A program made the position numbers and the translations under genes. A DNA stretch of 64,000 nucleotides from Chitinophagaceae bacterium UBA7600 (GTDB lineage Bacteria; Bacteroidota; Bacteroidia; Chitinophagales; Chitinophagaceae): positions 1-64,000 of the forward strand of contig DLKC01000066.1 of the NCBI GenBank assembly GCA_002478885.1, read 5' to 3'. The first letter of the stretch is position 1. Every line of letters begins with the position of its first letter. The notes beneath the pieces are model-generated. The model had not been told where the DNA came from. It did no database searches and saw only the letters and a list, made by a program, of their open reading frames with translations. Shown piece by piece: positions 5,411-59,912 of the stretch.

Positions 5411-5595
5411 ACCGGCTTTGTGCCACTGGCATCGACTGTTGCGTCGCACCCTTCAGCGTTCTCCTCATTTCCGGACAGGGCGGAAGCAAAAAAAAAGCTG
5501 CAGCAACCATAAGTTGCTGCAGCTTTAACAGGTATAAAATATTTGCTGCATTGAATTGTTGCCGTACAAGAGTGCGACGCAACCAAGCCCGGTTT
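5411..5595. repeat. REPIN/MITE-like inverted pair, copy 1
   Basis: The left core GTTGCGTCGCAC is at 5438-5449 and the right core GTGCGACGCAAC at 5572-5583. Outer flanks ACCGGCTTT and AGCCCGGTTT mirror each other. The left flank also carries GTGCC and TGGCATCG, shared with other copies. GTACAAG directly precedes the right core, as elsewhere in the family. The interior is unusual because it holds the minus-strand terminator hairpin at 5494-5526. Confidence 0.8.
5485..5526 (-). terminator. Strong terminator hairpin for the leftward fluoride/pyrophosphatase operon
   Basis: A perfect 14-bp stem is formed by AAAGCTGCAGCAAC (5494-5507) and GTTGCTGCAGCTTT (5513-5526). On the minus strand it is followed by an uninterrupted T run. 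It lies about 95 bp beyond the stop of the 50-residue membrane protein gene and inside repeat copy 1. Confidence 0.85.
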
Positions 5596-5619
5596 AACAG
5601 TTAGTGCCCGGCCAATGAA

Positions 5620-5772
5620 TTACATAATGTCCATAGCCAGCGCGAAATAAGTAACCACACCAGGTAATGCCAGCCAGAAAAACTGTCTTAAAAAAATCAT
5701 CAGCACTATAAGTATAACTAACCAAAGAAAGAATAACATCCAGTATTTTGCGGTTGACCTGTTGGCTTCCAT
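5620..5772 (-). CDS. Small (50-residue) hydrophobic membrane protein
   Basis: This short open frame encodes MEANRSTAKYWMLFFLWLVI and continues with LIVLMIFLRQFFWLALPG and a hydrophobic C-terminus. It reads as a short polar N-terminus followed by one long or two short membrane segments. The ATG at 5772 lies 54 bp after the TauE/SafE-like gene on the same strand, and the frame closes about 95 bp before a strong terminator, so it looks like the last gene of that operon. I do not recognise a family and assign no function. The other open frame over this region (5594-5794, minus) lacks such organised hydrophobicity and I consider it the shadow. Confidence 0.68.
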   Translation of the reverse strand: MEANRSTAKYWMLFFLWLVILIVLMIFLRQFFWLALPGVVTYFALAMDIM

Positions 5773-5826
5773 ATGCGTTTTTTAGTTTGTGCAAAAATAA
5801 TACTCAGATGAATATTGCCGAAGTTT

Positions 5827-6198
5827 TTATTTATCGAAAAAGAGCATCTTTATTCCTACAATAATAAGTACGCCGGCGAAAACTTTTTTAAGATCAGCCT
5901 GTGAAATGCTTAATGCCAGCTTGCTGCCAAGCCAGCCCCCGATGGTAAATGCCAAAGCCATGATGAGTACAATCTTAATATCGACCTGCCCTTTTTGATA
6001 GTAATTCCACACCGCGAGAATGCCAACGGGTAAAAGCAGCAGGCCCAATGAGGTGCCCTGTGCCTGTTGCTGCGTAAAACCCAATAGCAGCACCAGGGCG
6101 GGCACAATTATAATACCGCCACCAACGCCCACCAGGCCACTGATAATGCCCGCTAAAAGGCCAATAACGAGCAACAACATTATGGTTTGCGCACTCAT
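5827..6198 (-). CDS. TauE/SafE (TSUP)-family permease, single-repeat form
   Basis: This 123-residue membrane protein has about four membrane segments and the glycine-rich family start LLAGIISGLVGVGGGIIIVP. Full-length TSUP transporters are near 250 residues and contain two such repeats. This one corresponds to a single repeat and may work as a dimer (inference). The family moves sulfite, sulfoacetate and other anions across the inner membrane, but the substrate is not evident here. Its ATG overlaps the pyrophosphatase stop codon by one base (TGATG), implying translational coupling. Confidence 0.85.
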   Translation of the reverse strand: MSAQTIMLLLVIGLLAGIISGLVGVGGGIIIVPALVLLLGFTQQQAQGTSLGLLLLPVGILAVWNYYQKGQVDIKIVLIMALAFTIGGWLGSKLALSISQADLKKVFAGVLIIVGIKMLFFDK

Positions 6199-6743
6199 CA
6201 GGATTTTTTGAAGTTGTCTTTGTATGACTGTATCGCTTCCTCAACGATTTTAAGGGCAGTGGCTTTATCGCCGTAATCTTCTACCTGCACGCTTTTGTTT
6301 TCAAGGGTTTTGTATTCCTCGAAAAAGTGGCGTAGCTCATCAAAGAAATGTTTGGGCAATTCTTCTATATTATTGATATAGTTGATCGACTTATCATGCG
6401 CTGCCACTGCAATAATTTTATCGTCGGCATCGCCACCATCGATCATTTGCATTACGCCGATCACCTTTGCTTCCACAATGCAAAGCGGTTGAATGATCTG
6501 CCCGGACAGCACAAGTATGTCCAGCGGGTCTTTGTCATCGCCGTAAGTTTGAGGAATAAACCCGTAGTTGGAAGGATAATGAAACGATGAATAAATAACG
6601 CGGTCTAATTTTAATAGCCCTGTTGGCTTATCGATTTCGTATTTGGTTCTGGAACCCTGTGGTATTTCAATTACTGCATTTACAACTCTCGGTGCCTGGT
6701 CTCCAAAATGTACGCCGTGCCATGGATGTAATACTGTCATCAT
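6198..6743 (-). CDS. ppa: Family I inorganic pyrophosphatase
   Basis: This soluble enzyme hydrolyses pyrophosphate to two phosphates in the cytoplasm, pulling biosynthetic reactions forward. The metal-binding signature [10 protein letters not shown] is present, as are the substrate-site features [14 protein letters not shown] and [12 protein letters not shown] choose the ATG at 6743 (181 residues, product [10 protein letters not shown]), which matches the usual length near 175-180. The open frame runs 21 codons further upstream but that extension is low-complexity Asn/Thr-rich and lacks homology to the family as I know it. The gene sits between DUF190 and the TSUP permease in a tight operon with crcB. 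Family I pyrophosphatases are classic fluoride-inhibited enzymes, so the context is meaningful. Confidence 0.95.
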
Positions 6744-6808
6744 AAGTTTAGATGTTGTTTTGTTATTGTTGCTGTTGTTGAACCTTTGAGAAGGTTCGCG
6801 GGGCAAAG

Positions 6809-7159
6809 TTAATGCTGCTTTCCCGGCTGGTAGTAAATAACAGTTAATTTTTCGGTTGTCATCAAAGCGCCTTTGCCGGTTCTTTCAAAAATATCGTTTA
6901 TTACAGGGATAAAGGAATTAATTTTTGCTGCTTCGTCCACCATTTCAACGATTACCGGCAGGTTTTCCGAGATGTCTATCAGCCTTGCTGAATGTATAAC
7001 TGCGCTCGCCCCGTAACCTAGCATGCCTCTTAACACGGTTGCCCCTGCAAGCCCACATTCTCTTGCTTTTGTTACGATAACCTCGTAAACGGGCTTATGT
7101 TCAAGCCGGTCAGATTCCCCGACGAATATGCGCAACAGTAATGCTTCGCCGTTTTGCAT
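6809..7159 (-). CDS. DUF190 family protein
   Basis: This 116-residue cytoplasmic protein matches DUF190: it begins with [20 protein letters not shown] and contains [19 protein letters not shown] and [18 protein letters not shown] segments typical of the family, which has a ferredoxin-like, PII-like fold. DUF190 genes are often found next to crcB, and here it starts 10 bp after the crcB stop. Its biochemical role is not established. A regulatory or sensing role for the fluoride channel is inference from co-occurrence and fold. Confidence 0.9.
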
Positions 7160-7169
7160 GGTTTATGGT

Positions 7170-7556
7170 TTAAAGATATTTTACGCTGATAACCCCAAGA
7201 AAAACTGCTGCAATTCCCAACAGCACGCTTCCGGCAATGTACAACCCGAAATAAAGATAGTCGCCTGTACGAAGCAGGTTCATGTTTTCGTAGGCAAAGG
7301 TGGAGAAGGTTGTAAAGCCGCCACAAAAGCCCGTTGTTAATGCCATCCTCCACTCCGGCGTCAGAAGGTTACCTTTCTCACTTAACGCATAAAACAAACC
7401 GATGAGCAGGCAGCCAATAAGGTTTACTGTAAATGTGCCAAAAGGAAATGCCAATGCATAGAACCTGGCAAACCAGTTTTGCATGCCATACCTCGCTACA
7501 CCACCCAGGCCGCTACCTGCGAAAACGATCAATAAAGTTTTGAGTGAGCTGTTCAT
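7170..7556 (-). CDS. crcB: CrcB/Fluc fluoride channel
   Basis: This 128-residue four-helix membrane protein exports fluoride as a dual-topology dimer in the family. The diagnostic motifs are all visible: GGVARYGMQNWF, GTFTVNLIGCLLIGLFYAL and GFCGGFTTFSTFAYENMNLL, the last containing the phenylalanine-rich fluoride pathway. It is followed 10 bp later by DUF190 and then pyrophosphatase, a fluoride-sensitive enzyme. I see no fluoride (crcB-type) riboswitch: only 23 bp separate it from the upstream lipoprotein gene, with which it is probably co-transcribed. Confidence 0.95.
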   Translation of the reverse strand: MNSSLKTLLIVFAGSGLGGVARYGMQNWFARFYALAFPFGTFTVNLIGCLLIGLFYALSEKGNLLTPEWRMALTTGFCGGFTTFSTFAYENMNLLRTGDYLYFGLYIAGSVLLGIAAVFLGVISVKYL

Positions 7557-7579
7557 AAATTATTGCTGACAGTTGTTGC

Positions 7580-7981
7580 CTAAAGATTGCCGTCGAACGT
7601 GTATTTAAAATCTACCAGCCAAACACCGTTTCGCAGGATCACTTTTACCTTTCTACCCGTTTTGTCAAATGAATTCTGATAGTTGATGATATGCGTAGAG
7701 TCGTTTAACGTAGCATCTTCATTGATGATGATCGATGCATCATGGTACTGCTGTTGTTCAGCTTTGCTCTTGTCGTTGAAATTCCGCTTCTGGGTAAGCA
7801 GCAGATCATTGTTCTTATCGTCATTGATCATATAAAAGGCTGCTTTGTCAAAGTCACCCTTTAAACAACCGTCAATAAATTCACGGCCTGCATCAAAAGC
7901 ATTTTCCGCTTTTGGATAGTTCACTTTGTCGTTGCAGTTGCATAACAAAACAGCAGCCAGTAATATGCTTAGATATTTCAT
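7580..7981 (-). CDS. Small lipoprotein, DUF4878-like (putative)
   Basis: The predicted product is 133 residues with a lipoprotein signal (MKYLSILLAAVLLCNC). The mature part begins with an acidic helix and has the look of a small NTF2/cystatin-like fold: FIDGCLKGDFDKAAFYM followed by strands ending VKVILRNGVWLVDFKY. This pattern resembles DUF4878-type lipoproteins, but the match is by eye only. I set the start at the ATG at 7981; the open frame extends 12 codons further without a signal. It lies 23 bp upstream of crcB on the same strand and seems to lead the operon. Function unknown. Confidence 0.72.
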   Translation of the reverse strand: MKYLSILLAAVLLCNCNDKVNYPKAENAFDAGREFIDGCLKGDFDKAAFYMINDDKNNDLLLTQKRNFNDKSKAEQQQYHDASIIINEDATLNDSTHIINYQNSFDKTGRKVKVILRNGVWLVDFKYTFDGNL

Positions 7982-8005
7982 ATCGTTTTTTTCTTGAGCC
8001 GGTTT

Positions 8006-8013
8006 CAAAATTA
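8006..8013 (-). promoter_or_regulatory. Candidate -7 box for the lipoprotein-crcB-ppa operon
   Basis: The minus strand reads TAATTTTG, a perfect match to the Bacteroidota -7 consensus TAnnTTTG, 25 bp before the lipoprotein start codon and after the upstream phoH terminator. No good TTTG -33 box is seen at normal spacing. Confidence 0.45.
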
Positions 8014-8069
8014 GCACTCATCCGGTAATAAATGTTCTGCAATTATGCTATAGCTTGTCGCGGCTGCCA

Positions 8070-8100
8070 AATAAAAGAGGCGGTAATTCACCGCCTCTTT
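8070..8100 (-). terminator. Rho-independent terminator after phoH
   Basis: AAAGAGGCGG (8074-8083) pairs with CCGCCTCTTT (8091-8100). On the minus strand it is followed by TTTTATTT. It lies 18 bp past the phoH-like stop codon. Confidence 0.82.
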
Positions 8101-8117
8101 TTATTATTGATTGAATA

Positions 8118-9101: not shown

Positions 9102-9159
9102 AGGTTTTCCAATTTTAGTGATTAATTATTTTTCGGTCTCTCTAACTTAAGGGCTCTCT

Positions 9160-9167
9160 CAAATTTA
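9160..9167 (-). promoter_or_regulatory. Possible -7 box for phoH
   Basis: The minus strand reads TAAATTTG, matching TAnnTTTG, in AT-rich DNA 59 bp before the phoH start. No -33 TTTG at the usual distance, so this rests on the -7 box alone. Confidence 0.33.
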
Positions 9168-9294
9168 ATTTATTAAAATTGAAACACAACGCTTAATGTT
9201 ATTCACAGATTGTGGATATAAAGTTCCATTTTTAACGCAACAATTTTATCTAAAGAAATGGTAAAGGTTTTGTTTACCGGCTGTATTACTAAAG

Positions 9295-9430
9295 GCATCT
9301 TTGCTTGCGACGCTATGTTCATCTTTTGTAAATATGGCATCCAAAAAAAGCTTCAATGCGGTCAAATATCTTGTTCAGCATCTTGCTGCAGTTGAAGTGT
9401 GCGACGCAACGATGCCAAATAGCATTGCTG
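9295..9430. repeat. REPIN/MITE-like pair, copy 2 (left arm decayed)
   Basis: The right core GTGCGACGCAAC is intact at 9399-9410, followed by GATGCC and GGCTCATAAA as at other copies. The left side, GGCATCTTTGCTTGCGACGC (about 9295-9314), looks like a mutated left arm. The rest of the 449-bp gap between phoH and the T9SS gene is AT-rich and includes a possible weak hairpin AACAAAGGG / CCCTTTGTT (9500-9535) downstream of the T9SS gene. Confidence 0.65.
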
Positions 9431-9550
9431 AAGCTTGGCTCATAAAGAGCGATACGATTTTGTGTTCCTCCCGTATTATAAGTTGCTGCATATGGAAACA
9501 ACAAAGGGCTGCTACTGCCTGTACAACCCTTTGTTATGTTTGTTAATTTT

Positions 9551-10425: not shown

Positions 10426-10470
10426 ATAAACTGAATTTATTTTTAGCTCAAGTGATGTTTATTTTGCAGC

Positions 10471-12155: not shown

Positions 12156-12200
12156 CATGGCTGTTTTGTGGCAATTGTAATGTAAGCTACAGCTGCCCAG

Positions 12201-12270
12201 CCTGTGGCAAAAGTACAAGTGTGCGACGCAACGGCAGCATCATGCAAGCACCAAAGCCGGGCCTCAAATA
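12201..12270. repeat. REPIN/MITE-like solo arm, copy 3
   Basis: GTACAAGT leads into the core GTGCGACGCAAC at 12221-12232, followed by GGCAGCATCATGC and AGCCGGGCCTCAAATAA, the same order as in other right arms. No left partner is evident. Confidence 0.72.
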
Positions 12271-12342
12271 ATTCCAAAGAATATTTATATTCACCTGCCC
12301 AATTATTGCTGCCATCTTCAAAATTATTTTCAACAAAAATGT

Positions 12343-13954: not shown

Positions 13955-15361
13955 ATGACAAAACGTATTCTCTGTATTATACCTGCCTGCCTGTTCCTGC
14001 AAATAAGTTTTGCGCAGCAACCTGCGGCAAAGCAAAAAAAACAACTGCCTATCGGCGTTTTTGACAGCGGCACCGGGGGACTCACCGTTTTGCAGGCCAT
14101 GCTCACGCTCGATGCATTTAATAACGAAACGGGTTTGCCGGGTCCGGATGGCAAGCCTGATTTTGACAAAGAGTATTATCAATACCTGGCAGACCAGGCC
14201 AATATGCCTTACGGCAACTACGCCGCAGAGAATAAAACAGCGTTGCTTAAAGAACATGTTTTAAAGAACATGCAGTTCTTTATGCAGCCAGATTATGCAT
14301 TGCAACAAAAAGATAGCTGGTTGCAAAAAAGTAAACCGGAAGTGAAGATGATCGTTATCGCCTGTAACACGGCTACGGCATATGCCCTGGGCGATATCAA
14401 AAATTATGTAGCGCAGCAACAAAAAAATATCCCTGTAATCGGTGTAATCGATGCAGGTACAAAAGCAGCATTGGAATACCAGCAGGCGCATGCCAAGGGA
14501 ACAATCGGTGTGTTTGCCACGGCAGGAACCGTTGCAAGTGAAGGTTACCCGCGCACCATTAAAGCAATGGCTGCCAAACTGAATATGCCGGAGCCCTCTG
14601 TTGTAAGCCAGGGTGGCGTTGGATTGGCGGAAAGCATTGACCGTGACTGGAGTTATTTCAGCGACACGCTTACCCGGGTACGCAGCGAATACAAAGGCCC
14701 GTCTGTAAAAAATACCTCCCTGCATATTGAACCATCGTTGGGGGCGGCTTATCATTTTAATACAGAAGGCAACAAACTGTTGTGCGAATTTGATGGAAGC
14801 GGCAATTGTCTTGATATGCAATTGAACGACCCAGCGAATTATGCGCGCTATCATCTCGTAACGCTCTGCGAAAAAATGCTGCTGCAGCATTATACGCAAC
14901 CCATGAACACGCTTATTCTTGGTTGCACGCATTACCCTTATTTAAAAGATACGATCGCTGAAGTGTTGAATGAGTTATACAATTTTCAGAGCGATGGTAC
15001 GTTTCGTTACCGTGCGGTGCTGGCCGAACATGTGGAGTTGATCGATCCGGCTTTGGAAACAGCGAAACAGGCTTACGTCACCATGCGAAGCGATAACCTG
15101 CAGGAAGACAAGCCGGGCAAAAAGGAGAACATGTTTTTTATCAGTGTGCCCAACACGTCGTTGCCTGGCGTACAACTGCAAACCGATGGCTGGTTCACTT
15201 ATGCCTACAAATATGGCCGCACAGAGGGCGCCAACAAGGACTATGTAAAATATGTTCCCTTCGATACAAAAAATATTTCGGCGGCGACCTATGCACGTTT
15301 TAAAATGGTACTGCCCGATGTGTATAAAAAGCTGCAGCTTGAAGTAAAAGGAATCAATTGA
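13955..15361 (+). CDS. Exported glutamate/aspartate racemase-like protein (MurI homologue)
   Basis: This 468-residue protein starts with a Sec signal peptide (RILCIIPACLFLQISFAQ, cleavage near residue 21). The MurI-type racemase core follows: IGVFDSGTGGLTVL near residue 33, first catalytic cysteine in VIACNTATAY (Cys137) and second in LILGCTHYPYL (Cys324). Cytoplasmic MurI is about 260-270 residues with its two cysteines about 110 residues apart; here they are 187 apart, indicating an insertion of roughly 75 residues plus a long C-terminal extension of about 130 residues. The active site looks intact, so periplasmic racemase activity on a D-/L-amino acid is plausible but unproven. Confidence 0.83.
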   Translation: MTKRILCIIPACLFLQISFAQQPAAKQKKQLPIGVFDSGTGGLTVLQAMLTLDAFNNETGLPGPDGKPDFDKEYYQYLADQANMPYGNYAAENKTALLKEHVLKNMQFFMQPDYALQQKDSWLQKSKPEVKMIVIACNTATAYALGDIKNYVAQQQKNIPVIGVIDAGTKAALEYQQAHAKGTIGVFATAGTVASEGYPRTIKAMAAKLNMPEPSVVSQGGVGLAESIDRDWSYFSDTLTRVRSEYKGPSVKNTSLHIEPSLGAAYHFNTEGNKLLCEFDGSGNCLDMQLNDPANYARYHLVTLCEKMLLQHYTQPMNTLILGCTHYPYLKDTIAEVLNELYNFQSDGTFRYRAVLAEHVELIDPALETAKQAYVTMRSDNLQEDKPGKKENMFFISVPNTSLPGVQLQTDGWFTYAYKYGRTEGANKDYVKYVPFDTKNISAATYARFKMVLPDVYKKLQLEVKGIN

Positions 15362-15390
15362 TTTGGTCCCCGGCCCTGGTAACATCAATT

Positions 15391-15420
15391 AAGCTCTTGT
15401 TGCGTCGCACTCTTGTACTG
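15391..15420. repeat. REPIN/MITE-like solo arm, copy 4
   Basis: The core GTTGCGTCGCAC is at 15399-15410, followed by TCTTGTACTG. It sits in the 90-bp gap between two co-directional genes and has no partner. Confidence 0.72.
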
Positions 15421-15451
15421 TTTGTTCGCAATGCATCAATCAAATGATCTT

Positions 15452-19656: not shown

Positions 19657-19694
19657 TGCTTATACATTATAGCGGCATATCTATTTTTGATCCC

Positions 19695-19880
19695 GGCTGT
19701 TAAACTTCTGTTTGGCTTCGTTGCGTCGCACTCTTGTGCAACAGAATATAGGTCCAAGACCAGGATGCGAAAGTGGACTACAATCTTTTCTTTTTGCTGA
19801 CTTTCGGACTATTTGCCCAAGTGTGCGACGCAACGGAAGATGCTACAACTGCAAATGCCGGCTACCAAAAAAAGATCATA
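19695..19880. repeat. REPIN/MITE-like inverted pair, copy 5
   Basis: Left core GTTGCGTCGCAC at 19720-19731 and right core GTGCGACGCAAC at 19823-19834, 91 bp apart. CCCGGCTG on the left and GCCGGCTACC on the right form the outer flanks. The inner motif GCTGACTTTCGGACTA precedes the right core, as the reverse complement of a motif seen in copy 8. Confidence 0.82.
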
Positions 19881-25473: not shown

Positions 25474-25547
25474 TGGATCATAAATGTAATTATTAAGTCA
25501 CTAATCCTCACACCCGTTTTACAAAAAGCCTGTTAACACTATGAGGC

Positions 25548-25755
25548 CGGCTGCATATCATTTTCCGTCTTCGTTGCGTCGCACACTTATACTGCAGCAT
25601 ACAAGTCGGAAATATTATAGACTTAAAGTACGCAAGCATTTTATCAGTGCGCAAATGGCGTCGGCCTTTTCCGTCTTTGCTGACCTCCCAGTTTATTGCA
25701 CAGGAGTGCGACGCAACAGCCGATGCCACAGGCACAAAAGCCGGCTCCAAAAAAA
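25548..25755. repeat. REPIN/MITE-like inverted pair, copy 6
   Basis: Left core at 25573-25584 and right core at 25706-25717, 121 bp apart. The right outer flank carries the full set ...GCCGATGCCACAGGCAC then AAAAGCCGGCTCC and AAAAAAATATAA; the left flank has GAGGCCGGCTGC. It fills most of the 309-bp gap between the TlpA and GDSL genes; nothing else is visible there. Confidence 0.83.
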
Positions 25756-25782
25756 TATAAGCACTGATACAACGCTGACCAG

Positions 25783-26607: not shown

Positions 26608-26679
26608 GTGATCGATTTTTGTGTAATAGTAAAATTATTCGGGGAAAACAGGGAGAAGAATTTTTGGATCCTGCTGTTC

Positions 26680-26740
26680 AACAAGTATCCAACATCGTTG
26701 CGTCGCACTCCTGTACTGCATCGCTATGGGCAACAGGCGC
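26680..26740. repeat. REPIN/MITE-like solo arm, copy 7, in a 437-bp gap
   Basis: The core GTTGCGTCGCAC is at 26697-26708, followed by TCCTGTACTG. It lies in the gap 26608-27044. The rest of the gap, which includes the presumed promoter of the S74/T9SS gene, shows no coding frame I can support; TTGTACACGG near 27000 is not a convincing promoter box. Confidence 0.7.
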
Positions 26741-27044: not shown

Positions 27045-29084
27045 ATGAGAAAGCCATTACTCTTTATTGCAACTGCGTTCATTGCCAATGCGGTTATCGC
27101 TCAAAGCTGGTTGCTCACCGGCAACAGCGGAACAAATGTTTCCACAAATTTTATCGGAACCACCGATTCAAAGCCCCTCACATTCAGAGTAAACAACCTA
27201 CAGGCCGGCTATATAGATTTTGCATCGGGTAAAGCCAATACCATGTTTGGTTACCAGGCACTGCGCAGTAATACCGGTAACAACAACCTGGCGCTCGGCT
27301 ACAAGGCTTCCTACTCGAATACAACGGGAAAAAATAATATGGCTGCCGGCGCTTATGCACTCTACTTTAATACCACCGGTTACAGCAATATTGCTATTGG
27401 TATTGGTGCTCTTTACAGGAATACAACCGTCCCTAACCTTGTGGCGGTTGGGGATTCGGTGTTATACAATAACGCATCCGGTGGCGGAAATACCGGTATT
27501 GGCTCCAAGGTACTCTATACCAATACTTCGGGAAACTCCAATACGGCAGGCGGCTTTTATGCGCTGCATAATAACAGCACTGGTAGTTTCAATTCAGCAT
27601 GGGGCGTAAGCGCACTTACGGCCAATACATCGGGTAGTTATAACAGTGCCCTTGGTTTGGCCGCATTGGGGCAAAATACCACCGGCAATTACAATACGGC
27701 ATCGGGTTATCAATCCTTATACTTTAATTCAACAGGTACACAAAATACCGCCATGGGTTACCAGGCATTATATTTTAACAAGGCAAACCTGAATACTGCA
27801 GTCGGTTACCAGGCAATGTATACCAATTCAACCGGCAGTTTCAATACCACAATGGGTACCTTTTCGATGTATAATACCACAACAGGATACAGCAGTGCAG
27901 CTTTCGGGTATTCTGCTCTATATGGGAATACCACAGGCTACTATAATGCTGCCATGGGTCCGCTGGCATTATTCAGCAACAGCACCGGTTATGAAAATAC
28001 GGCAAGCGGGTACCGTGCCCTTTATAGCAATACAACAGGGGCAACTAATACCGCTTCCGGGTGGGAAGCGCTATATAACAATATAAACGGCTATGGCAAT
28101 ACTGCGACAGGTACAAGCGCTTTGGCAAGTATCACCACCGGCTCGTTCAATACTTCCATCGGCAATATCGCATTGGCCGGTTTATTTGTTGGTAGTTATA
28201 ATACAGCAATAGGAAATGCATCCGGGCCTTTTATTATTACGGAAATGTACAATTCAACGGCCGTAGGTGATGAAGCAGAGCCGTCGGTTGACAACCAGGT
28301 CCGTATCGGCAACGGCAGTGTAAGCAGTATTGGCGGTGCAGTAGGCTGGACAAATTATTCAGATGAAAGAATAAAGACCGATATAAGAGAAAACGTGCCT
28401 GGCTTGTCTTTTATCAACCTGCTTAAACCTGTCACCTATCACTTCAAACTTGCAAAAGAAAATGAACTGATGGGAAAGAGGAAAGACACTGTAAACTGGA
28501 GAAGCAAGTATGATATTGAGAAAATGAATTTCACAGGTTTACTTGCACAGGAAGTACAGAAAGCGGCGAAGCAGATCAATTACAATTTCAGCGGTGTTGA
28601 TACAGCAGGAAAAGTCTGGGGTCTCCGGTATGCTGAATTTGTTATGCCTCTGATAAAGTCAGTACAGGAACTTAGCAAAATGAATGATCAGAAAGACGCT
28701 GAGATCGCGCAACAAGGCGCACAGATTAACGATCTTCAAAAACAGATCAATGATTTAAAAGCATTGTTGTTGCCGGGGAAGACAGACATAACAACAGCTG
28801 ACCCGTTGCTGACAAATAGCGCCGTGGCATCCCTTGCGCAAAATGTTCCTAACCCGTTTGCAAGCAGCACATCAATCAACTATAATTTGCCGAAGCAGTT
28901 TTCTTCAGCCAGGATAATGATAACAGACAAAGCCGGTAACACCGTCAAGCAGTTTAGTATTTCAGGAGCAGGAAAAGGAAATATAACTGTTGATGCTGCG
29001 ATGCTTTCTTCCGGCACTTATCAATATTCGTTATACGTGGATGGAAAGCTGCTTGCCTCAAAGCAAATGTTGCTGGGAAAATAA
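27045..29084 (+). CDS. T9SS-exported repeat protein with S74 intramolecular chaperone domain
   Basis: This 679-residue protein has a signal peptide (LLFIATAFIANAVIA). Residues about 70-400 are some 15 tandem repeats of about 22-24 residues with the pattern NTTGxxNxAxGxxALYxN, like the head repeats of trimeric fibre and YadA-type adhesins. Next is a peptidase S74 chaperone domain with the Ser-Lys dyad SDERIK (Ser439, Lys444), then a coiled coil (LSKMNDQKDAEIAQQGAQIN), and a C-terminal T9SS domain (VPNPFASSTSINYNL... SSGTYQYSLYVDGKLLAS). S74 domains trimerise phage tail fibres and then cleave themselves at the Ser. A secreted trimeric surface fibre is the likely product. Confidence 0.85.
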   Translation: MRKPLLFIATAFIANAVIAQSWLLTGNSGTNVSTNFIGTTDSKPLTFRVNNLQAGYIDFASGKANTMFGYQALRSNTGNNNLALGYKASYSNTTGKNNMAAGAYALYFNTTGYSNIAIGIGALYRNTTVPNLVAVGDSVLYNNASGGGNTGIGSKVLYTNTSGNSNTAGGFYALHNNSTGSFNSAWGVSALTANTSGSYNSALGLAALGQNTTGNYNTASGYQSLYFNSTGTQNTAMGYQALYFNKANLNTAVGYQAMYTNSTGSFNTTMGTFSMYNTTTGYSSAAFGYSALYGNTTGYYNAAMGPLALFSNSTGYENTASGYRALYSNTTGATNTASGWEALYNNINGYGNTATGTSALASITTGSFNTSIGNIALAGLFVGSYNTAIGNASGPFIITEMYNSTAVGDEAEPSVDNQVRIGNGSVSSIGGAVGWTNYSDERIKTDIRENVPGLSFINLLKPVTYHFKLAKENELMGKRKDTVNWRSKYDIEKMNFTGLLAQEVQKAAKQINYNFSGVDTAGKVWGLRYAEFVMPLIKSVQELSKMNDQKDAEIAQQGAQINDLQKQINDLKALLLPGKTDITTADPLLTNSAVASLAQNVPNPFASSTSINYNLPKQFSSARIMITDKAGNTVKQFSISGAGKGNITVDAAMLSSGTYQYSLYVDGKLLASKQMLLGK

Positions 29085-33500: not shown

Positions 33501-33529
33501 CAGAATTATTTCGTTTATTTTTTATGGTC

Positions 33530-33720
33530 CAGGCTGTTGAATCAATGGCATCTTCGTTGCGTCGCACACTTGTACGATTAGTCCGTAAGTCAGCAAAGAT
33601 GCAAAGTCCGACTGTAATTGATCTTTGCTGAAGTAACGCTCGGCCTTGCCGATGTGCATGTTACAGTACAAGGGTGCGACGCAACAAAAGTTTAATAGCA
33701 CTACTATTGCCTGGTTCAAA
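33530..33720. repeat. REPIN/MITE-like inverted pair, copy 8
   Basis: Left core at 33556-33567 and right core at 33674-33685, 106 bp apart. GGCATCTTC precedes the left core; ACACTTGTAC and TTAGTCCGTAAGTCAGCAAAGA follow it; GTACAAG precedes the right core. It is one of the cleanest copies and fills the 301-bp gap upstream of the MFS operon. Confidence 0.85.
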
Positions 33721-33801
33721 ATCTGTTAACCTTACTTCGCAGTGGCAGCATGCTAAACAGGAGCGGTAAATATTTTGATTTTGTTTCGCTCCGGTTAATG
33801 A

Positions 33802-38495: not shown

Positions 38496-38654
38496 TTGCA
38501 GTCTTTTTTATTTTTTTGTTACCGGCATTGGTTCTTTTGGCAATCCCGTACGTACGGGGTGCTGTTACTCACCTGATCGCCCGGAACATCTTTGATAAGA
38601 TCGTGAAAGGTGAGATAATCTTACGCTTTACCTTTTACGTCTCTCGAATACAGA

Positions 38655-38725
38655 TTTACCGCACAAGTGTGCGACGCAACCAAAGATTAATAGTAATTCC
38701 ACAGCCCGACCCATAAAAATATAAT
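38655..38725. repeat. REPIN/MITE-like solo arm, copy 9
   Basis: The core GTGCGACGCAAC is at 38669-38680, preceded by GCACAAGT and followed by CAAAGATTAATAGT and AGCCCGACCCATAAAAATATAA. It separates the Gfo operon from the TIM-barrel/GH88 pair. Confidence 0.72.
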
Positions 38726-41139: not shown

Positions 41140-41225
41140 GCAAAAGTGTGCGATGCCGGATAAGCCGGCACTATCGCGCAACAGTCGATGCCACGAAGTA
41201 TAAAGCCTGGCCCAAAATATATTGC
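41140..41225. repeat. REPIN/MITE-like arm with expanded core hairpin, copy 10
   Basis: At 41148-41182 the core is interrupted: GTGCGA, then TGCCGGATAAGCCGGCA with CTATC, then GCGCAAC. It forms a long hairpin. The outer part GTCGATGCCACG and GCCTGGCCC is shared with other right arms. Its reverse complement is found exactly at 47403-47437. Confidence 0.8.
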
Positions 41226-44834: not shown

Positions 44835-44915
44835 TTTCTTTGCTGAGCTCCGGGCTAGTTGTACAAGCGTGCGACGCAACGAAGTTGCCATAGGTGCCAC
44901 TGCATGGCTCATAAA
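44835..44915. repeat. REPIN/MITE-like solo arm, copy 11
   Basis: CTTTGCTGAGCTCCGGGCTAG, then GTACAAGC and the core GTGCGACGCAAC at 44869-44880, followed by GAAGTTGCC and GGCTCATAAAAAAAT. GGCTTATTCGGCACCGC near 44750 may be a degraded partner. Confidence 0.74.
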
Positions 44916-44948
44916 AAAATGCCATTAACAGCTGGATGTTTACCATAC

Positions 44949-47394: not shown

Positions 47395-47450
47395 CAGCTG
47401 CTGTTGCGCGATAGTGCCGGCTTATCCGGCATCGCACACTTGTGCCACAG
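47395..47450. repeat. REPIN/MITE-like arm with expanded core hairpin, copy 12
   Basis: At 47403-47437 the core is GTTGCG, then CGATAGTGCCGGC, TTATCCGGCATCGCAC, the exact reverse complement of the 35-base core of copy 10. ACTTGTGCC follows. Confidence 0.8.
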
Positions 47451-49568: not shown

Positions 49569-49610
49569 CTTTCTGTTTAACTTGCTGAATATTTAACCTT
49601 CAGATGAATG

Positions 49611-49645
49611 GTGCGACGCAACAGGCGTTGCCACATGTACCGGAG
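49611..49645. repeat. REPIN/MITE-like solo arm, copy 13
   Basis: The core GTGCGACGCAAC is at 49611-49622, followed by AGGCGTTGCCAC and GGAGCCGGGC. It lies 36 bp beyond the stop of the GH3 fusion gene. Confidence 0.73.
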
Positions 49646-49658
49646 CCGGGCACATCAA

Positions 49659-52598
49659 TTACTTTTTTCTCTCCGCTTCAATTGCTTTATACACATTCTC
49701 GAGCAATGCAATTCTTACATTCAGCTCAGAGATCTTTTTATTATCACCACCCATCGGGTTGACGCGGTTCGACAAAAAGATGAACACAATATTTTCTTTT
49801 GGATCGACCCATACACAGGTGCCCGTAAAACCTGTGTGGCCAAAGGTTTGTGGCGATGCGCTCAATGCCGGGTAAGGATCTTTTCTTATCGCATTATCTT
49901 TCTCCGGTTTATCAAAGCCGAGGCCTCTTCTGCTCGAATCGCTGTGATAGGCAGTGAAGAAATCGATCGTTTCTTTCTTTATAAAACGCTGGCTGTTGAG
50001 CTCGCCGCCATTGAGCAACATCTGGTATAATTTGGCAAGGTCATACGCGTCGCTGAACAAACCTGCATGACCGGCAACACCGCCAAACATGGCAGCACCG
50101 GGATCATGCACAAAACCAGCTAACTGCTGCAGACGAAAATATTTTTCATTCTCAGTTGGTGCAATCTTATTCAGCGGCATAGAGAGCGAAGGCTTGAAGC
50201 CGGTTGATTGCATATGCATCGGCGCGTAAAAATGATCGTGCACATAATTGTCAAGCGTTTGGCCCGCGATCTGCTCAACGATCTTGCCAAGGAAAATAAA
50301 ATCGTTATCACTGTAAATGTATTTTCCTGTTGTGCCAACCGGGCTGGCTAAGATGCGTGCATTGATCGTATCGAGATAATCCTTGCGCATATACATGTTG
50401 GCGGCAACGGGAACGCTGTAAACCGCATCGGGCGCTGATTGGTAATAGCCGGGTTTGGGTATGCCGGTGAGCGTGTCGATTGTTTCGCGGTAGAAAGGAA
50501 TATACGCGACAAGACCCGCCTGGTGCAACAGCACATTTTCCAGTGTAAGATTTTCTTTGTTGCTGCCTTTTACCCATGGCAGGTAATCGCCCAAAGTCTT
50601 TTTAATATCGAGTTTGCCTTCGTCGTACAATTTCATAACCGCAACAGTGGTAGCAGAGATCTTTGTAACCGACGCAAGGTCATAGACCGTTTCCGTTGTC
50701 ACCGGTTGCTTTCGATCGTAACTGTAGTAACCGTAAGCGCGGTTGAAAACGATCTTACCGTTTCTCGCTACAAGCAATACGCAGCCGGGTGTTGCCTGTT
50801 GTGCAATGGCTGCTTCCGCAATGGAATCTGCTTTGTTCAGCACCTGACTGCTCAGGCCTTGTTCTTCGGGGGCGGCAAATGCCAGTTCCATCGGTGCATT
50901 TACAACACCGTTGCCATATTTGAAATTACCAACGGTTACAGGCAGGGTACCTCTCGCAGCAAATTTACCGTTCAGCCAGTCAAATGCTTTTTGCTGAAAG
51001 ATCGCGTCATCTTCATAACAGGCAATGATATTGGGCGCCGTACTCACGTTTTTGATTGCATAAGGATTGGCAAATACCATCGTGATGGTCGGATTGATCT
51101 GTTGTATGTTTTGTGCCAGTTGAATAGCTGCATCACTAAACCCGAAATTATTTGCGGGTGACTTTGCCAGTTTGTGCACGCCGACGATTACTTTGCTATA
51201 CTTGTTTTGCAATGCATTCAAAATCGCTTCCGCTTTTGTGGAATCATCGGCTTTGTAATCAAAGAAATAAAGATCAGCATTGAAATGATCTTTTAACAGC
51301 GTGGCAAATGTATTGGCTTCGGTAAGCCCTATACCAACATAGGCAATGCGGTCATTTTGTTGTAACGGTAATAAGCGCGGATGTGTTAACTGCACAATGG
51401 TAAGCGCGTGTTCAGCCGCTTCCGCTCTTAACGAAGGAACAGCCATATTCAGCTCTTTGGTAAGCCCATCGATGTTGATGGGTTGCAGTTTATTAAGGCC
51501 AAGATGATATTTCGCAAGCAGCACCCTTTTTACCCTTGCTTCAAGATCTTTTTTGTCAAGCTGTTTTTTCTTCAATGCCTTTATCGTGGCTTCAATAGTG
51601 CCGGGCACATCGCCGGGTAAACAAAGCATGTCATTGCCTGCGAGCAATGATTGCAAACCACCAACTGCATCCGGATAATATTTAGCCACGCCCTGCATCT
51701 CCAATGCATCGGTAAAAGAAATGCCTTTAAAACCAAGCTCGTTGCGGAGTAAATCGGTAATACTGTTTTTTGAAAGCGATGTGGGCAGGTGCGCGGTCGT
51801 ATCAATAGCAGGAATACCAAGGTGCGCATTCATCACGCTGCCAACGCCGGCTTTGAATAATTCTTTGAACGGGTATAATTCAAGCGTATCCAGTTGTTCG
51901 ATCGTTTTGTTGATCATGGGCAGGTCAAAATGCGAATCAACACTTACATCACCATGGCCCGGGAAATGTTTGGCGCAGGCCATCACGCCCACATCCTGCA
52001 GGCCGTTCATGATCTGGATACCAAACTTCGCTACCTTATATTTATCCTCGCCAAAAGAGCGGTAACCAATTACCGGGTTGTTCGGATTGTTATTGATATC
52101 AACTACCGGTGCATAATCAACCTGTATGCCCGCACGCTTGCATTGTTCGCCCATGGCGCGGCCGATCTTATAAATAATGCCGGCATCATCAACGGCGCCA
52201 AGCGTAAGCTGGTCAGGGAATTTCATCACGCTGTCATACATGCGCATACCCACACCCATCTCACCATCGATAGAGATCATGATCGGTGTTTTCGCGATGC
52301 TTTGAAAATGGTTGATAAAATTTGCCTGGTCAACCGGGTTGCCCTGGAACAAACAAATAGAACCAATATTGTATTTGCGCACTTCTTCTTCCACTTTCTT
52401 ATCGTAGAACTCCCAGCCTGTCGGGGTTTTGGCAGACAACCGCACTACCATCAATTGAGCGATGCGTTGTTCTTTCGACAGGGATTTATATACACTGTCG
52501 ACCCAGTGTTTCGCTTCAGGTGTCTCGTTCAGGAACTTCTGGCAAAAAGCAGTCTGTGCAAATGCAAGCAATAAGAGGAGTATATGCAGACGTTTCAT
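49659..52598 (-). CDS. NagZ-like GH3 fused to a serine beta-lactamase-fold hydrolase
   Basis: The product from the ATG at 52598 is 979 residues with a signal peptide (MKRLHILLLLLAFAQTAFCQ). The N-terminal GH3 domain (residues about 40-380) has the NagZ signature KHFPGHGDVSVDSHFDLPMI with its His-Asp dyad and KTPIMISIDGEMG-type core, indicating beta-N-acetylglucosaminidase activity. A GH3 C-terminal-like region follows, then a class C beta-lactamase-fold domain (about 600-975) with SVTK, YSD (YIYSDNDFIF) and HTG (FGHTGFTG). It may cleave muropeptides in the periplasm. The open frame extends seven codons upstream of the signal start. Confidence 0.92.
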   Translation of the reverse strand: MKRLHILLLLLAFAQTAFCQKFLNETPEAKHWVDSVYKSLSKEQRIAQLMVVRLSAKTPTGWEFYDKKVEEEVRKYNIGSICLFQGNPVDQANFINHFQSIAKTPIMISIDGEMGVGMRMYDSVMKFPDQLTLGAVDDAGIIYKIGRAMGEQCKRAGIQVDYAPVVDINNNPNNPVIGYRSFGEDKYKVAKFGIQIMNGLQDVGVMACAKHFPGHGDVSVDSHFDLPMINKTIEQLDTLELYPFKELFKAGVGSVMNAHLGIPAIDTTAHLPTSLSKNSITDLLRNELGFKGISFTDALEMQGVAKYYPDAVGGLQSLLAGNDMLCLPGDVPGTIEATIKALKKKQLDKKDLEARVKRVLLAKYHLGLNKLQPINIDGLTKELNMAVPSLRAEAAEHALTIVQLTHPRLLPLQQNDRIAYVGIGLTEANTFATLLKDHFNADLYFFDYKADDSTKAEAILNALQNKYSKVIVGVHKLAKSPANNFGFSDAAIQLAQNIQQINPTITMVFANPYAIKNVSTAPNIIACYEDDAIFQQKAFDWLNGKFAARGTLPVTVGNFKYGNGVVNAPMELAFAAPEEQGLSSQVLNKADSIAEAAIAQQATPGCVLLVARNGKIVFNRAYGYYSYDRKQPVTTETVYDLASVTKISATTVAVMKLYDEGKLDIKKTLGDYLPWVKGSNKENLTLENVLLHQAGLVAYIPFYRETIDTLTGIPKPGYYQSAPDAVYSVPVAANMYMRKDYLDTINARILASPVGTTGKYIYSDNDFIFLGKIVEQIAGQTLDNYVHDHFYAPMHMQSTGFKPSLSMPLNKIAPTENEKYFRLQQLAGFVHDPGAAMFGGVAGHAGLFSDAYDLAKLYQMLLNGGELNSQRFIKKETIDFFTAYHSDSSRRGLGFDKPEKDNAIRKDPYPALSASPQTFGHTGFTGTCVWVDPKENIVFIFLSNRVNPMGGDNKKISELNVRIALLENVYKAIEAERKK

Positions 52599-52639
52599 CG
52601 ATTCAATTTTCAGCCACAAGATAAATGATAAAAAGAATT

Positions 52640-52700
52640 TGGTTACCGGCTTTCAGCACACAGATCAGACTTTCGTTGCGTCGCACACTTCAACACACAC
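52640..52700. repeat. REPIN/MITE-like solo arm, copy 14
   Basis: ACCGGCTTTCAGC precedes the core GTTGCGTCGCAC at 52675-52686. It is oriented opposite to copy 13 on the other side of the GH3 gene. Confidence 0.73.
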
Positions 52701-52772
52701 AACATCGGTCGACCGTCGACCGATTGTACAATTCAGCATGCAGAAAAGGCGGCTCACAGGCAGATGAAGAAT

Positions 52773-52880: not shown

Positions 52881-52889
52881 ACATTCAAC

Positions 52890-57036: not shown

Positions 57037-57037
57037 T

Positions 57038-57086
57038 GATTCAAAATTTATACTGCTGCAAATTTACCACAGGTAAAATTTGAATC
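57038..57086 (-). promoter_or_regulatory. Promoter with flanking palindrome upstream of the copper ATPase
   Basis: The minus strand reads TAAATTTG (plus 57059-57066), a match to TAnnTTTG, 23 bp before the start codon. It is flanked by inverted arms GATTCAAAATTTA (57038-57050) and TAAAATTTGAATC (57074-57086), complementary at most positions. The arrangement fits an operator over the promoter. The rest of the 525-bp gap to 57561 holds repeat copies and a hairpin CCGGTTGGT / ACCAACCGG (57350-57374); no gene is seen. Confidence 0.5.
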
Positions 57087-57159
57087 TGGCGCGATGCGGA
57101 ATATCTTTTAAACAGCGTTGCATTTTATAAAGTTTCTTGTGTTACGAACTACAGTGCAG

Positions 57160-57215
57160 GTGGCATCGCCTGTTGTGTCACTCACTTGTGCGCTTAGTCC
57201 GCAAGTCAGCAAAGA
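57160..57215. repeat. REPIN/MITE-like degraded left arm, copy 15
   Basis: TGGCATCGCCTGTTGTGTCA, then CACTTGTGCGCTTAGTCCGC and AAGTCAGCAAAGACGG, match the left arm and inner motif of copy 8 with changes in the core (GTTGTGTCACTC, 57172-57183). Confidence 0.66.
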
Positions 57216-57442
57216 CGGCTAGACTGAAATTTGTTTTCCTTACCGGTTGCCGGGAGCAGCAACTGGTAAGGCTGGCATCAATTTAATAATTGGCAGCGGT
57301 GCCCAATTGAAAGTATTCGAGGCACAATATGAATAAAGAATTTTTACTACCGGTTGGTCTCCCTCACCAACCGGAACAGTAAGTATGAGTTAATAAAGAA
57401 GGGAGAACCTGAACCCGGCTTTTACGATCCTCGGCACCGGCG

Positions 57443-57478
57443 GTTGCGTGAAAGGTGCCGGCTTATCCGGCTTCACAC
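57443..57478. repeat. Expanded core hairpin variant, copy 16
   Basis: GTTGCG, TGAAAGGTGCCGGC, TTATCCGGCTTCACAC: the same architecture as copies 10 and 12 but with a different outer stem (GTGAA/TTCAC in place of GCGAT/ATCGC), so the pairing is kept by paired changes. Confidence 0.7.
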
Positions 57479-57561
57479 TCTTCATCCGCAGCATTCAATG
57501 GAGCAAGCGCCTGTTTGTTCCTTTTGTACAATGGTCAAAATAGGCAATCTTCAGAAACGCT

Positions 57562-59406
57562 TTATTCCTTCACGAGCATTTTTGTAACTACGGTACTGCC
57601 ACTTTCTATCCTTAACCAATAATTGCCCGATTTTAACTGGCTGATATTCCAGTTATATGTTCCTGCTGTTACAATAGTAGCTGCTTTCCTGTTGCCCATA
57701 AGATCGCTGATGCTAAGCATAGTTTTCTGAGTGCCAGGCAAACCTTCTATCTGTAAACTATTCTTTACAGGATTCGGATATATTTTTATCATGGAAGCAT
57801 TGTCATTTTCTATCGCCAGTACATTAGAAGTGATGTTACTCCCATCTGATGCTACGGCGGTTAACCTGTAATAGTTTGTTCCTGTTAAAGGGGCAGGGTC
57901 TTCAAAATAATTGTTTGATTGATTACGACGATGTGTGGTTAAGGTGGCAATGGGATTAAATATTGTACCATTTGCACTGCGCTCAACTGTAACAGCATTG
58001 CCTGCCAGGTGTGGAAAATCATCCCAGGTAAAACCGTGTTTGTGCAGCCATTTCTTTATTTTGGCAAACCAGGGTTTTTCAACCGGGTCTCCGTTATAAC
58101 GGACAAGGGCTGGATTTTGCACTACTTCAATAAATCCAACTACTACAATTTTTCCATCAGGTTGCAACAAAGCGTCATAGGCATAATCAGCGCTCCCGCC
58201 AAAATCGGTGACCTGTATACCATTTTCACCAAAATGCGTATTCGGTGATCCATCCTTATTATACCGCGCCACAATAAAGTCGGCAGGTACCCCATCGCCA
58301 TAAAGATTATAGTTAGTGCCTGCCACGATAATTTGCCCATCATCCTGTAACAGCACTTTTTGGCCCACGGAAGACCTTGTCCCTGCAACCGTAATTACTT
58401 TGCCATTCTCTCCAAAGCTGCTGTCGGGTGCACCGCTGGATTGATAACGGACCAATGCAATATCTCCTGCATAACCAGCCATATTACCGGCAGCACCCGT
58501 TGCAACAATCTTACCATCCGGCTGCAGCACGATGGAAGTGATTTTATCTCCGCCCGCCGCAACATCGCTCATTACCGTGCCGTTGTTACCAAATGAAATA
58601 TCAGCGCTGCCATCCGGTAAATAGCGGGCAAGAACGAAAAGCGTCCTGTCGGCACTTGTGCCTGTTTGTCCACCGGCTACTATTTTACCATCCGGCTGTA
58701 CGGCAATACTGTGTGCCTGGTCAAAACCTTTGTAACTTGTGCGGATCCAGCCATCCCCGCTAAAACCGGCATCAAGGCTGCCGTCGGGCATATATCTTGC
58801 CACCAGCCAGCTTTGATCACTGCCGCCGCACATTACGATCCTGCCATCCGGCTGCAGGGTAACAGCATAGGCTCTTTCATCATCATCTCCAAAATCGTAG
58901 TCTGCTATGCCATTCACGCCAAAGCTGCTGTCAAAAGTTCCATTGCTGTTATAACGTATCAGCACCGCATCAACATCTTCCAGGTAGTACGGATTATATA
59001 TTTTTCTATAGCCTTCCCCCGCCGCAATTATTTTTCCGTCATCCTGGACTAGCACATCCCTTACCTGCAAAAGAAACACTCCCTCGGCCGTAAGCGTAAC
59101 TACCTGGCCGTTATCGCCAAACGATGAATCAAGGCTGCCATCAGCATTATAACGCATTATAAGGAAGTCATATTCATTTACACCACCATATCCCGTAAGC
59201 AGAATTTTGCCATCTTTTTGCAGTGCTGAGGCATAGATATATCCAATAGTTTCATTGATTACTTTGCCACTGTCCCCAAAACTATTGTCTAAGATGCCGG
59301 GTTGGCCTTGCACATGAAGTAGGGCAAGGTTTAAGATGCCTGCAAATAATGATCTTTTTAAAAAATTATTATTTGTAACATTCATCATTGATAAAATCTT
59401 TCTCAT
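57562..59406 (-). CDS. Delta-60-repeat protein with T9SS sorting domain
   Basis: This 614-residue protein has an N-terminal signal (FAGILNLALLHVQGQ) and about seven tandem delta-60-type repeats of roughly 55 residues with the pattern LQPDGKIVxxG...ARYNxDGSLDSSFGxxG (residues about 35-430), which form a beta-propeller-like fold. A linker leads to a C-terminal T9SS domain (KIYPNPVKNSLQIEGLPG, SDLMGNRKAATIV, LKSGNYWLRIESGS). It is predicted to be secreted through T9SS. Function unknown. The start may be one of two ATGs within the first eight codons. Confidence 0.88.
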   Translation of the reverse strand: MRKILSMMNVTNNNFLKRSLFAGILNLALLHVQGQPGILDNSFGDSGKVINETIGYIYASALQKDGKILLTGYGGVNEYDFLIMRYNADGSLDSSFGDNGQVVTLTAEGVFLLQVRDVLVQDDGKIIAAGEGYRKIYNPYYLEDVDAVLIRYNSNGTFDSSFGVNGIADYDFGDDDERAYAVTLQPDGRIVMCGGSDQSWLVARYMPDGSLDAGFSGDGWIRTSYKGFDQAHSIAVQPDGKIVAGGQTGTSADRTLFVLARYLPDGSADISFGNNGTVMSDVAAGGDKITSIVLQPDGKIVATGAAGNMAGYAGDIALVRYQSSGAPDSSFGENGKVITVAGTRSSVGQKVLLQDDGQIIVAGTNYNLYGDGVPADFIVARYNKDGSPNTHFGENGIQVTDFGGSADYAYDALLQPDGKIVVVGFIEVVQNPALVRYNGDPVEKPWFAKIKKWLHKHGFTWDDFPHLAGNAVTVERSANGTIFNPIATLTTHRRNQSNNYFEDPAPLTGTNYYRLTAVASDGSNITSNVLAIENDNASMIKIYPNPVKNSLQIEGLPGTQKTMLSISDLMGNRKAATIVTAGTYNWNISQLKSGNYWLRIESGSTVVTKMLVKE

Positions 59407-59425
59407 AATTTATTTTTATAAATAG

Positions 59426-59650
59426 TTAATCACACGTTTGGTTAATTACATCTTTGTAATAGGTAGTGCCAACTTTTGCATAGGAAACTTTTGCTACTCT
59501 TTTAAACGTTAATCCGGATATTGGGTTCGTGAGGTTGAAAGTACATATCGCCGCATTGAAATCACAGGTCTTCAAGTTGCCAACTTCCTGGGAATATAAC
59601 GAAGGAGAACAAACAATTAAACTGGATAAAAGTGTGAGGCTTGTTTTCAT
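59426..59650 (-). CDS. Small exported protein (74 residues)
   Basis: This small protein has a signal-peptide-like N-terminus (MKTSLTLLSSLIVCSPSLYS). The mature part is about 54 residues with three cysteines (NLKTCDFNAAICTFNLTNP and the final TCD) and several Lys/Thr. It lies 19 bp upstream of the delta-60-repeat T9SS gene on the same strand and may be co-transcribed with it. I recognise no family. The short length and reading-frame context keep this below certainty. Confidence 0.58.
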   Translation of the reverse strand: MKTSLTLLSSLIVCSPSLYSQEVGNLKTCDFNAAICTFNLTNPISGLTFKRVAKVSYAKVGTTYYKDVINQTCD

Positions 59651-59808
59651 GGCAGCAGGTTAAGTGTTCGATGACAGGTTTGCACTTTGAAACTACTGCA
59701 AATATTTAAACTGTTAAAATGAATGTTATATTCCGGGGACGCTGTGGAGACAAAAATTTCTCTTCATTATTTCGGTTGGCGGGGGAACCAACGAATGGCG
59801 AAATTAAT

Positions 59809-59869
59809 TAAGCTGCAAGCCTTAAGCTATTAGCTGCAGGCAAATACAAAAGGCTTAAAGCTTTTAGCT
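59809..59869. repeat. Degenerate AGCTTAAGCTGCAAGC-type repeat tract
   Basis: TTAAGCTGCAAGCCTTAAGC, TATTAGCTGCAGGC and GGCTTAAAGCTTTTAGC are loosely repeated and partly palindromic. It lies in the 436-bp gap 59651-60086 before the TonB receptor, which otherwise holds repeat copy 17 and no gene I can support. Confidence 0.45.
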
Positions 59870-59889
59870 AACCGCTCAGAACTGTTGCT

Positions 59890-59912
59890 TCTGTACAAGA
59901 GTGCGACGCAAG
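59890..59912. repeat. REPIN/MITE-like solo arm, copy 17
   Basis: CTGTACAAGAGTGCGACGCA at about 59891-59910 is followed by AG instead of AC, a slightly mutated core. No partner is visible. Confidence 0.68.

Follow-up and report, generated by a model that had tools for sequence, protein, structure and literature searches.

What is the short sequence that recurs, in both orientations, in the gaps between the genes of a 64,000-nucleotide stretch of Chitinophagaceae bacterium UBA7600 (contig DLKC01000066.1; "the window" hereafter means this whole stretch)? The original prediction took it for a dispersed mobile repeat of the REPIN kind (inverted pairs of repetitive extragenic palindromic, or REP, sequences) or of the MITE kind (miniature inverted-repeat transposable elements). 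We propose that each copy is the center of an ~82-bp unit whose features suit a maintained DNA signal better than a jumping repeat, and, judging from sequence comparison, the chances are about even that selection or drive maintains the unit as a DNA recognition site, its closest likeness being to the DNA uptake sequences (DUS) of Neisseria and the uptake signal sequences (USS) of Pasteurellaceae. This reading draws on a strict core, drifting flanks, places that are kept between genomes, even spacing and a scarcity of decayed copies.

The family is large. The type 1 core, GTTGCGTCGCAC, has 16 exact matches in the window, all of them where they had been placed, and 20 matches with up to two mismatches, against 5.06 ± 2.42 across 100 shuffles, every one of which stayed below 20; the copy at 59901, CTTGCGTCGCAC, has one mismatch. 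In all, 18 intact-core units and three split-core ones lie in the window (Table 1). Throughout the source genome (5.47 Mb searched in 105 contigs, 98.7% complete) GTTGCGTCGCAC occurs exactly 963 times and its reversed control not once, and for STTGYGTCRCWC, a pattern that matches either main core type, the counts are 1,731 and, for its control, three, so the supposition of a family dispersed over the whole genome was correct. The eight Chitinophagaceae genomes counted with STTGYGTCRCWC range from 290 to 2,510 copies, the relatives being G140 (2,510), G148 (2,505), G207 (2,378), G069 (1,819), G058 (1,670), G025 (993) and G024 (290). The exact type 1 core was also found, as had been anticipated for related genomes, in 163 of the 294 Chitinophagaceae genomes sampled, with a maximum of 1,304 copies, and is absent from the other 131. 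Full reading covered 464 kb of the source genome (8.5%), and comparisons were made with a stretch of G058 and with a 400-kb stretch of G140, a complete single-contig genome (37.6% GC) that belongs to another genus, which it shares with G058.

Each unit consists of the same blocks in the same order, namely a T-tract (columns −38 to −32), CCGGC (−28 to −24), a GC-rich block ending near −4, an 11-bp core (0 to 11), wCTTGTAC (12 to 19) and AGCA (near 35 to 39). The ordered arm blocks described in the window are thus general, in that the informative columns coincide between 94 exact copies from the source genome and 116 copies from G140, a different genus, and the mean profile drops to background beyond about −42 and +40. 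The type 1 core contains a short dyad, TGCG-T-CGCA, whose middle reads CGTC. The core is strict: 42 of the 51 cores with one mismatch carry one identical change, G to C at base 1, and those with two mismatches (n = 26) do not rise above chance arithmetic (~32). When the core was masked, a flank profile trained on units with an intact core found 156 sites with an intact core in the source genome, 189 in G140 and 132 in G058, compared to 8, 4 and 14 sites, respectively, with one to four core mismatches; by this measure decayed copies are scarce, and the third core form described below probably accounts for the nine three-mismatch sites of G058. A 10.5-bp helical phasing of the flank blocks was considered and, though appealing to the eye, discarded, as it was not significant either in the mean profile (p 0.14) or by block permutation (p 0.35).

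The units lie outside genes almost throughout. With open reading frames (ORFs) called by an in-house longest-ORF script, 162 of the 175 type 1 and type 2 cores in the 464 kb are intergenic, in keeping with the gaps noted in the window, and another 11 are close to a 5′ end or within a short ORF. The unit has a preferred end: where a single unit follows a gene end, no more than 6 bp separate its T-tract end from the stop codon in 31 of 63 cases in the source genome, 33 of 57 in G140 and 25 of 57 in G058, compared to 4 of 49, 3 of 45 and 1 of 52 for the other end, and when gene ends lie on both sides of a single unit its T-tract end is the closer one in 18 of 22, 21 of 26 and 22 of 24 cases, respectively. 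The inverted pairing reported for the window was confirmed there (four pairs, gaps of 122, 91, 121 and 106 bp) and elsewhere, pairs closer than 300 bp facing inward in 32 of 33 cases in the source genome and 46 of 47 in G140, and since units tend to run from the gene edge into the gap such pairs may simply follow. Unpaired units are nevertheless common (109 of 175 in the source stretch), and their cores are intact. The units are also neutral as to strand, with 35 oriented with and 34 against the genes in tandem gaps (type 1, up to one mismatch) and the cores of G140 divided 1,255 to 1,255, and we count this neutrality in favor of a recognition site.

Spacing between unit-bearing gaps is more even than expected by chance. 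The coefficient of variation (CV) for both core types, set against 3,000 random draws among candidate gaps, which depend on our ORF calls, is 0.601 in the source genome (null 0.796 ± 0.083, p 0.0007), 0.503 in G140 (null 0.733 ± 0.059, 0 of 3,000 draws) and 0.568 in G058 (null 0.798 ± 0.070, 0 of 3,000), and the effect is strong in the source genome with type 1 cores only. The idea that core-free voids are foreign islands was rejected; voids longer than 8.5 kb between neighboring cores of both types number none in the 400 kb of G140, one in the source genome and two in G058.

Comparison of orthologous gaps, the counts of which are small, suggests that places are often kept while sequence is not. 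The gaps of G140 that bear a unit do so also in G058 in 8 of 13 cases, with orientation shared in seven and opposite in one, and the type of core agrees in 9 of 10 matched units; the other five gaps have no unit in G058, which is the presence/absence difference between relatives that the original prediction had looked for. In a 13-kb block shared with the source genome four type 1 units, taken from the type 1 list, agree in gap and orientation, one gap has opposed orientation and further units are unmatched, and one gap of this block has a type 2 unit in the same orientation in both G140 and G058. The flanks of matched units are hardly more alike than those of random units (identity 0.458 versus 0.423 over 14 pairs, of which two are clearly more alike). 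By comparison, the core stays while flanks drift to saturation, and different genomes often have a unit in the same gap with the same orientation. Genomes of one genus are only ~65–79% identical in aligned DNA (main pieces), so unit edges at empty sites are unreadable. One 76-bp gap in G266 faces unit-bearing gaps of ~160–220 bp in G097 and G171, where the facing unit is type 1 in one genome and type 2 in the other.

The units are not confined to chromosomes of the family. A 20-base form of the motif matches 28 IMG/VR stretches, including a phage contig (L362) with portal, capsid, decoration, sheath, head-closure, tape-measure and terminase genes, where units lie in intergenic gaps at 6220, 12667, 15673 and 19044; other unit-bearing stretches carry an S49 peptidase or a RecT gene. 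Units in the gaps of a real phage genome are likewise counted for a recognition site. Searches for close phage relatives with or without units gave a best other match of 40% protein identity for one query and none for the other, and a search of plasmids with one 301-base query gave only 21-base chance matches.

If the recognition-site reading is right, each unit would be read at the level of DNA, probably by a protein present in part of the Chitinophagaceae, with the 11-bp core and CTTGTAC as the main contact and the T-tract, CCGGC and AGCA blocks assisting. Core mutants would be removed by selection or drive, units would now and then be seeded or overwritten via copying or gene conversion from other units, and, were the unit a mark for uptake or self, DNA carrying one every few kilobases would be favored. 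A signal found about once per 2–3 kb in the richest genomes, with a near-invariant core and places often kept across genera, implies a dedicated reader. As to the job of the unit, our tentative guess by analogy is that it marks DNA as self or for uptake, in the manner of DUS/USS, and it is possible, if doubtful, that the Bacteroidota have in this family such a mark, the richest relatives each carrying ~1,700–2,500 sites of 82 bp at even intervals, with kept places, core dialects and units shared with phages of the same hosts. If true, the signal system would differ from DUS and USS in both size and placement, and competence in Bacteroidota would become directly testable.

The likeness to DUS and USS lies in hundreds to thousands of copies, a fixed short core, the lack of strand bias, even spacing (spacing and orientation of uptake sequences are discussed in passages of PMC1939737) and dialects. 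The units differ in being extended to ~82 bp and anchored by one end at stop codons, and in their avoidance of genes, for only 3 of 501 cores in three genomes lie deep in ORFs, whereas 65% of uptake sites in H. influenzae and 35% in N. gonorrhoeae are in ORFs according to the same passages. Overall DUS/USS are nearest in behavior and REP sequences and bacterial interspersed mosaic elements (BIMEs) nearest in placement, and the units belong fully with neither.

Several observations weigh against the recognition-site reading. Copy number is patchy and very unequal even inside genera, and the few cores deep in ORFs of at least 200 aa (2 of 175 in the source genome, 0 of 193 in G140 and 1 of 133 in G058) are unlike USS/DUS. 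The core has single-step variants (10 type 1 cores in the 400 kb of G140 are altered at the last base), intermediates between types 1 and 2 make up 4 of the 100 G024 cores listed, and the training of the masked flank profile on intact-core units bears on the apparent scarcity of decay. Near-identical copies confined to the unit exist in G058 and the source genome, and the left and right halves of units are each more related than independent columns predict, whole units less so. With type 1 cores only, the spacing in G140 is not significantly even (CV 0.731, null 0.811 ± 0.069). No reader protein was identified, and the competence protein ComEC, which all 20 unit-rich genomes and 18 of the 20 unit-free ones possess, does not discriminate.

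The main rival is the mobile repeat itself, in which a REP-associated tyrosine transposase (RAYT) or another transposase would copy units or inward dimers behind genes and recognize the core as an end or a hairpin. We consider it unlikely on balance, but extragenic position, inward pairs, patchy copy number, presence/absence between relatives, and the longer hairpin of split cores all speak for it, and so do the unit-limited copies. Pairs of units with at least 0.80 identity in the flank columns number eight in G058, one in the source genome and none in G140; of those in G058 two reach past the unit and others are limited to it, as judged from six pairs printed per genome with edges that vary from case to case. 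In the source genome two dimers are alike in the interior and not in the outer arms, and two units are alike only in the left part, to about +20. We read these as occasional copying or gene conversion of units, which partly favors the mobile rival. In stretch C2 of G058 the left blocks of the units at 2559 and 71294 look reciprocally swapped with blocks ~47 bp farther out, as if by recombination between both loci.

The REPIN/MITE mechanism was not supported: single units are common, decayed copies are rare, places are kept across genera and the arms are barely related. Among 110 inward pairs from five genomes the left halves of the arms have an identity of 0.384, compared to 0.385 for shuffled arms, and the right halves are slightly alike (0.473 versus 0.452 ± 0.010); no target duplication is evident at these pairs, where the best three-base match reached 17, the permuted maximum being 13.7 ± 1.8, and longer words were within the null. 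A type 1 core lies within 1.5 kb of none of the three PF01797 (Y1 transposase) genes of the source genome, one of which has a type 2 core ~1 kb away, and 10 of 12 unit-rich genomes have a PF01797 match, but G024 and the complete G140, with its 2,510 cores, have none, other transposase families not having been searched genome-wide. We hence rejected a RAYT as the mover, although a Y1 gene is enclosed by inward units at 2 of 28 Y1 loci, L167 (G069) and L177 (G207) of one genus, where the type 1 units are ~1.6 kb apart. The absence of a transposase from the window was borne out for 40 of the larger ORFs, none of which exceeds a Pfam cut-off, smaller ORFs not having been scanned.

The described REP families differ as well. 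GTAG REPs and REPINs with a RAYT are extragenic, lie behind genes and form many inverted dimers (PMC3733652, in part), as our units do, but the units lack a GTAG-type tag beside the palindrome in the 94-copy profile, their arms are unrelated and no RAYT is needed in G140. CGTC REPs, which the same passages describe as head-to-head dimers found also in Bacteroidetes, without a dedicated transposase and with 8–9-bp stems, loops of 4–5 bases and a CGTC tag at one end, differ from type 1, in which the dyad is short and CGTC central, and type 2 does not fit that description either. In TnpA-REP subclass 2.6 of Bacteroidetes, atypical repeats surround the Y1 gene and have copies elsewhere in the genome (PMC6006769, in part); the 3.2-kb locus of the seemingly nearest Y1 gene of the source genome by motif reading (L033) contains neither a type 1 nor a type 2 core. 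The units depart from MITEs in that terminal inverted repeats within a pair are not alike and no target duplication is evident, and resemble mobile repeats in the few recent element-limited copies. A search of the PMC literature with the core words on both strands returned nothing on bacterial repeats by title.

Two other explanations take their lead from gene ends. BIMEs of enterobacteria are mosaic extragenic units at the ends of transcription units and bind gyrase, IHF or DNA polymerase I, and our units are alike in being extragenic, mosaic and at transcription-unit ends. A BIME-like boundary or supercoil site, at which gyrase, a nucleoid protein or another such factor would bind between transcription units, would be a different job for what is still a maintained DNA site; by analogy it is a close rival and the next likeliest job, though rather improbable. 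It would account for the T-tract end by stop codons, even spacing, mosaic halves and the filling of convergent gaps of 100–199 nt (14 of 16 in the source genome, 18 of 24 in G140), and would provide thousands of natural boundary sites, but such a site is missing from many close relatives, and so is not essential, and units occur also in phage DNA. An RNA element at gene ends, whether terminator, attenuator or stabilizer, is very improbable. Anchoring at stop codons would suit it; orientation is indifferent to that of the genes in tandem gaps, no base-pair covariation in register was found along 94 copies, the window has no matches to Rfam covariance models at gathering scores, and the T-tract sits before the CCGGC block and not after a hairpin.

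While flanks vary, cores fall into discrete forms with few intermediates: TTGCGTCGCAC (type 1), TTGTGTCACTC (type 2) and the less common TTGCCACGCTC. Types 1 and 2 number 138 and 37 in the 464 kb of the source genome and 121 and 72 in the G140 stretch, and they differ at three bases, with the changes at two of these complementary about the dyad. Among 295 genomes of the class, four contain a 16-base type 2 pattern, these being 4 of the 7 Chitinophagaceae and none of the 288 others. The third form has 10 copies in the G058 stretch, all with the outer anatomy common to other units, and 5 in G148, 2 in the source genome, 1 in G025 and none in G140; in G058 and G148 it is followed by a GGTTCA-like sequence. 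Sites first listed as variants in the window resolved into two kinds: one is an intact second core type, GTTGTGTCACTC, and the other three are split cores interrupted near the dyad center by a stretch containing GCCGGCTTATCCGGC. Splits of this kind recur in the genome, as CCGGCTTATCCGG occurs at 30 places in the source genome and at none or one in 13 other unit-rich genomes, and all the places viewed (6 in the 464 kb and a set of 14, partly the same ones) are within units at mid-core. Split cores have half-sites of type 1 or type 2, some degenerate, and make a longer hairpin at the dyad. Together the core dialects and the split form are a rare record of signal change.

At the other extreme of copy number, low-copy genomes contain isolated single units with unchanged anatomy (30 loci viewed in five genomes). 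No alternative dominant core tied to the unit was found in k-mer scans of 14–40 kb in eight genomes with no core or one, or of 100 kb in four low-copy genomes, small samples in which other repeated words are present. In G007 (L347–L351) the word CCCTGTAAGGG is over-represented, 9 copies being present in 100 kb where 0.02 would be expected, and is probably a separate repeat family. Among the matches listed for a longer form of the motif in named records (80 loci in at least 105 stretches) most are labeled Chitinophagaceae or member genera, and the motif-bearing records include Segetibacter, Foetidibacter, Hydrotalea, Limnovirga and Flavisolibacter, which we take to belong to this family.

Table 1. 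Units and split cores of the repeat family along the window (positions of the whole stretch).
Feature	Position	Strand	Remarks
Type 1 unit, left partner of pair	5396..5477	+	core 5438-5449
Type 1 unit, right partner	5544..5625	-	core 5572-5583
Type 1 unit	9371..9452	-	core 9399-9410
Type 1 unit	12193..12274	-	core 12221-12232
Type 1 unit	15357..15438	+	core 15399-15410; T-tract end meets stop codon of ORF 13955-15361
Type 1 unit, left partner of pair	19678..19759	+	core 19720-19731
Type 1 unit, right partner	19795..19876	-	core 19823-19834
Type 1 unit, left partner of pair	25531..25612	+	core 25573-25584
Type 1 unit, right partner	25678..25759	-	core 25706-25717
Type 1 unit	26655..26736	+	core 26697-26708
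Type 1 unit, left partner of pair	33514..33595	+	core 33556-33567
Type 1 unit, right partner	33646..33727	-	core 33674-33685
Type 1 unit	38641..38722	-	core 38669-38680
Split (hairpin) core	41148..41182	-	type 1 half-sites flank insert with palindrome GCCGGCTTATCCGGC
Type 1 unit	44841..44922	-	core 44869-44880
Split (hairpin) core	47403..47437	+	type 1 half-sites
Type 1 unit	49583..49664	-	core 49611-49622; T-tract end meets stop codon of ORF 49659-52619 (-)
Type 1 unit	52633..52714	+	core 52675-52686
Type 2 unit	57130..57211	+	core GTTGTGTCACTC at 57172-57183
Split (hairpin) core	57443..57478	+	diverged half-sites
Type 1 unit, first core base C	59873..59954	-	core 59901-59912 = CTTGCGTCGCAC

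Among the genes of the window, the ORF at 27045-29084 encodes a Peptidase_S74 (endosialidase chaperone) domain and has internal periodic repeats of 48–51 bases.

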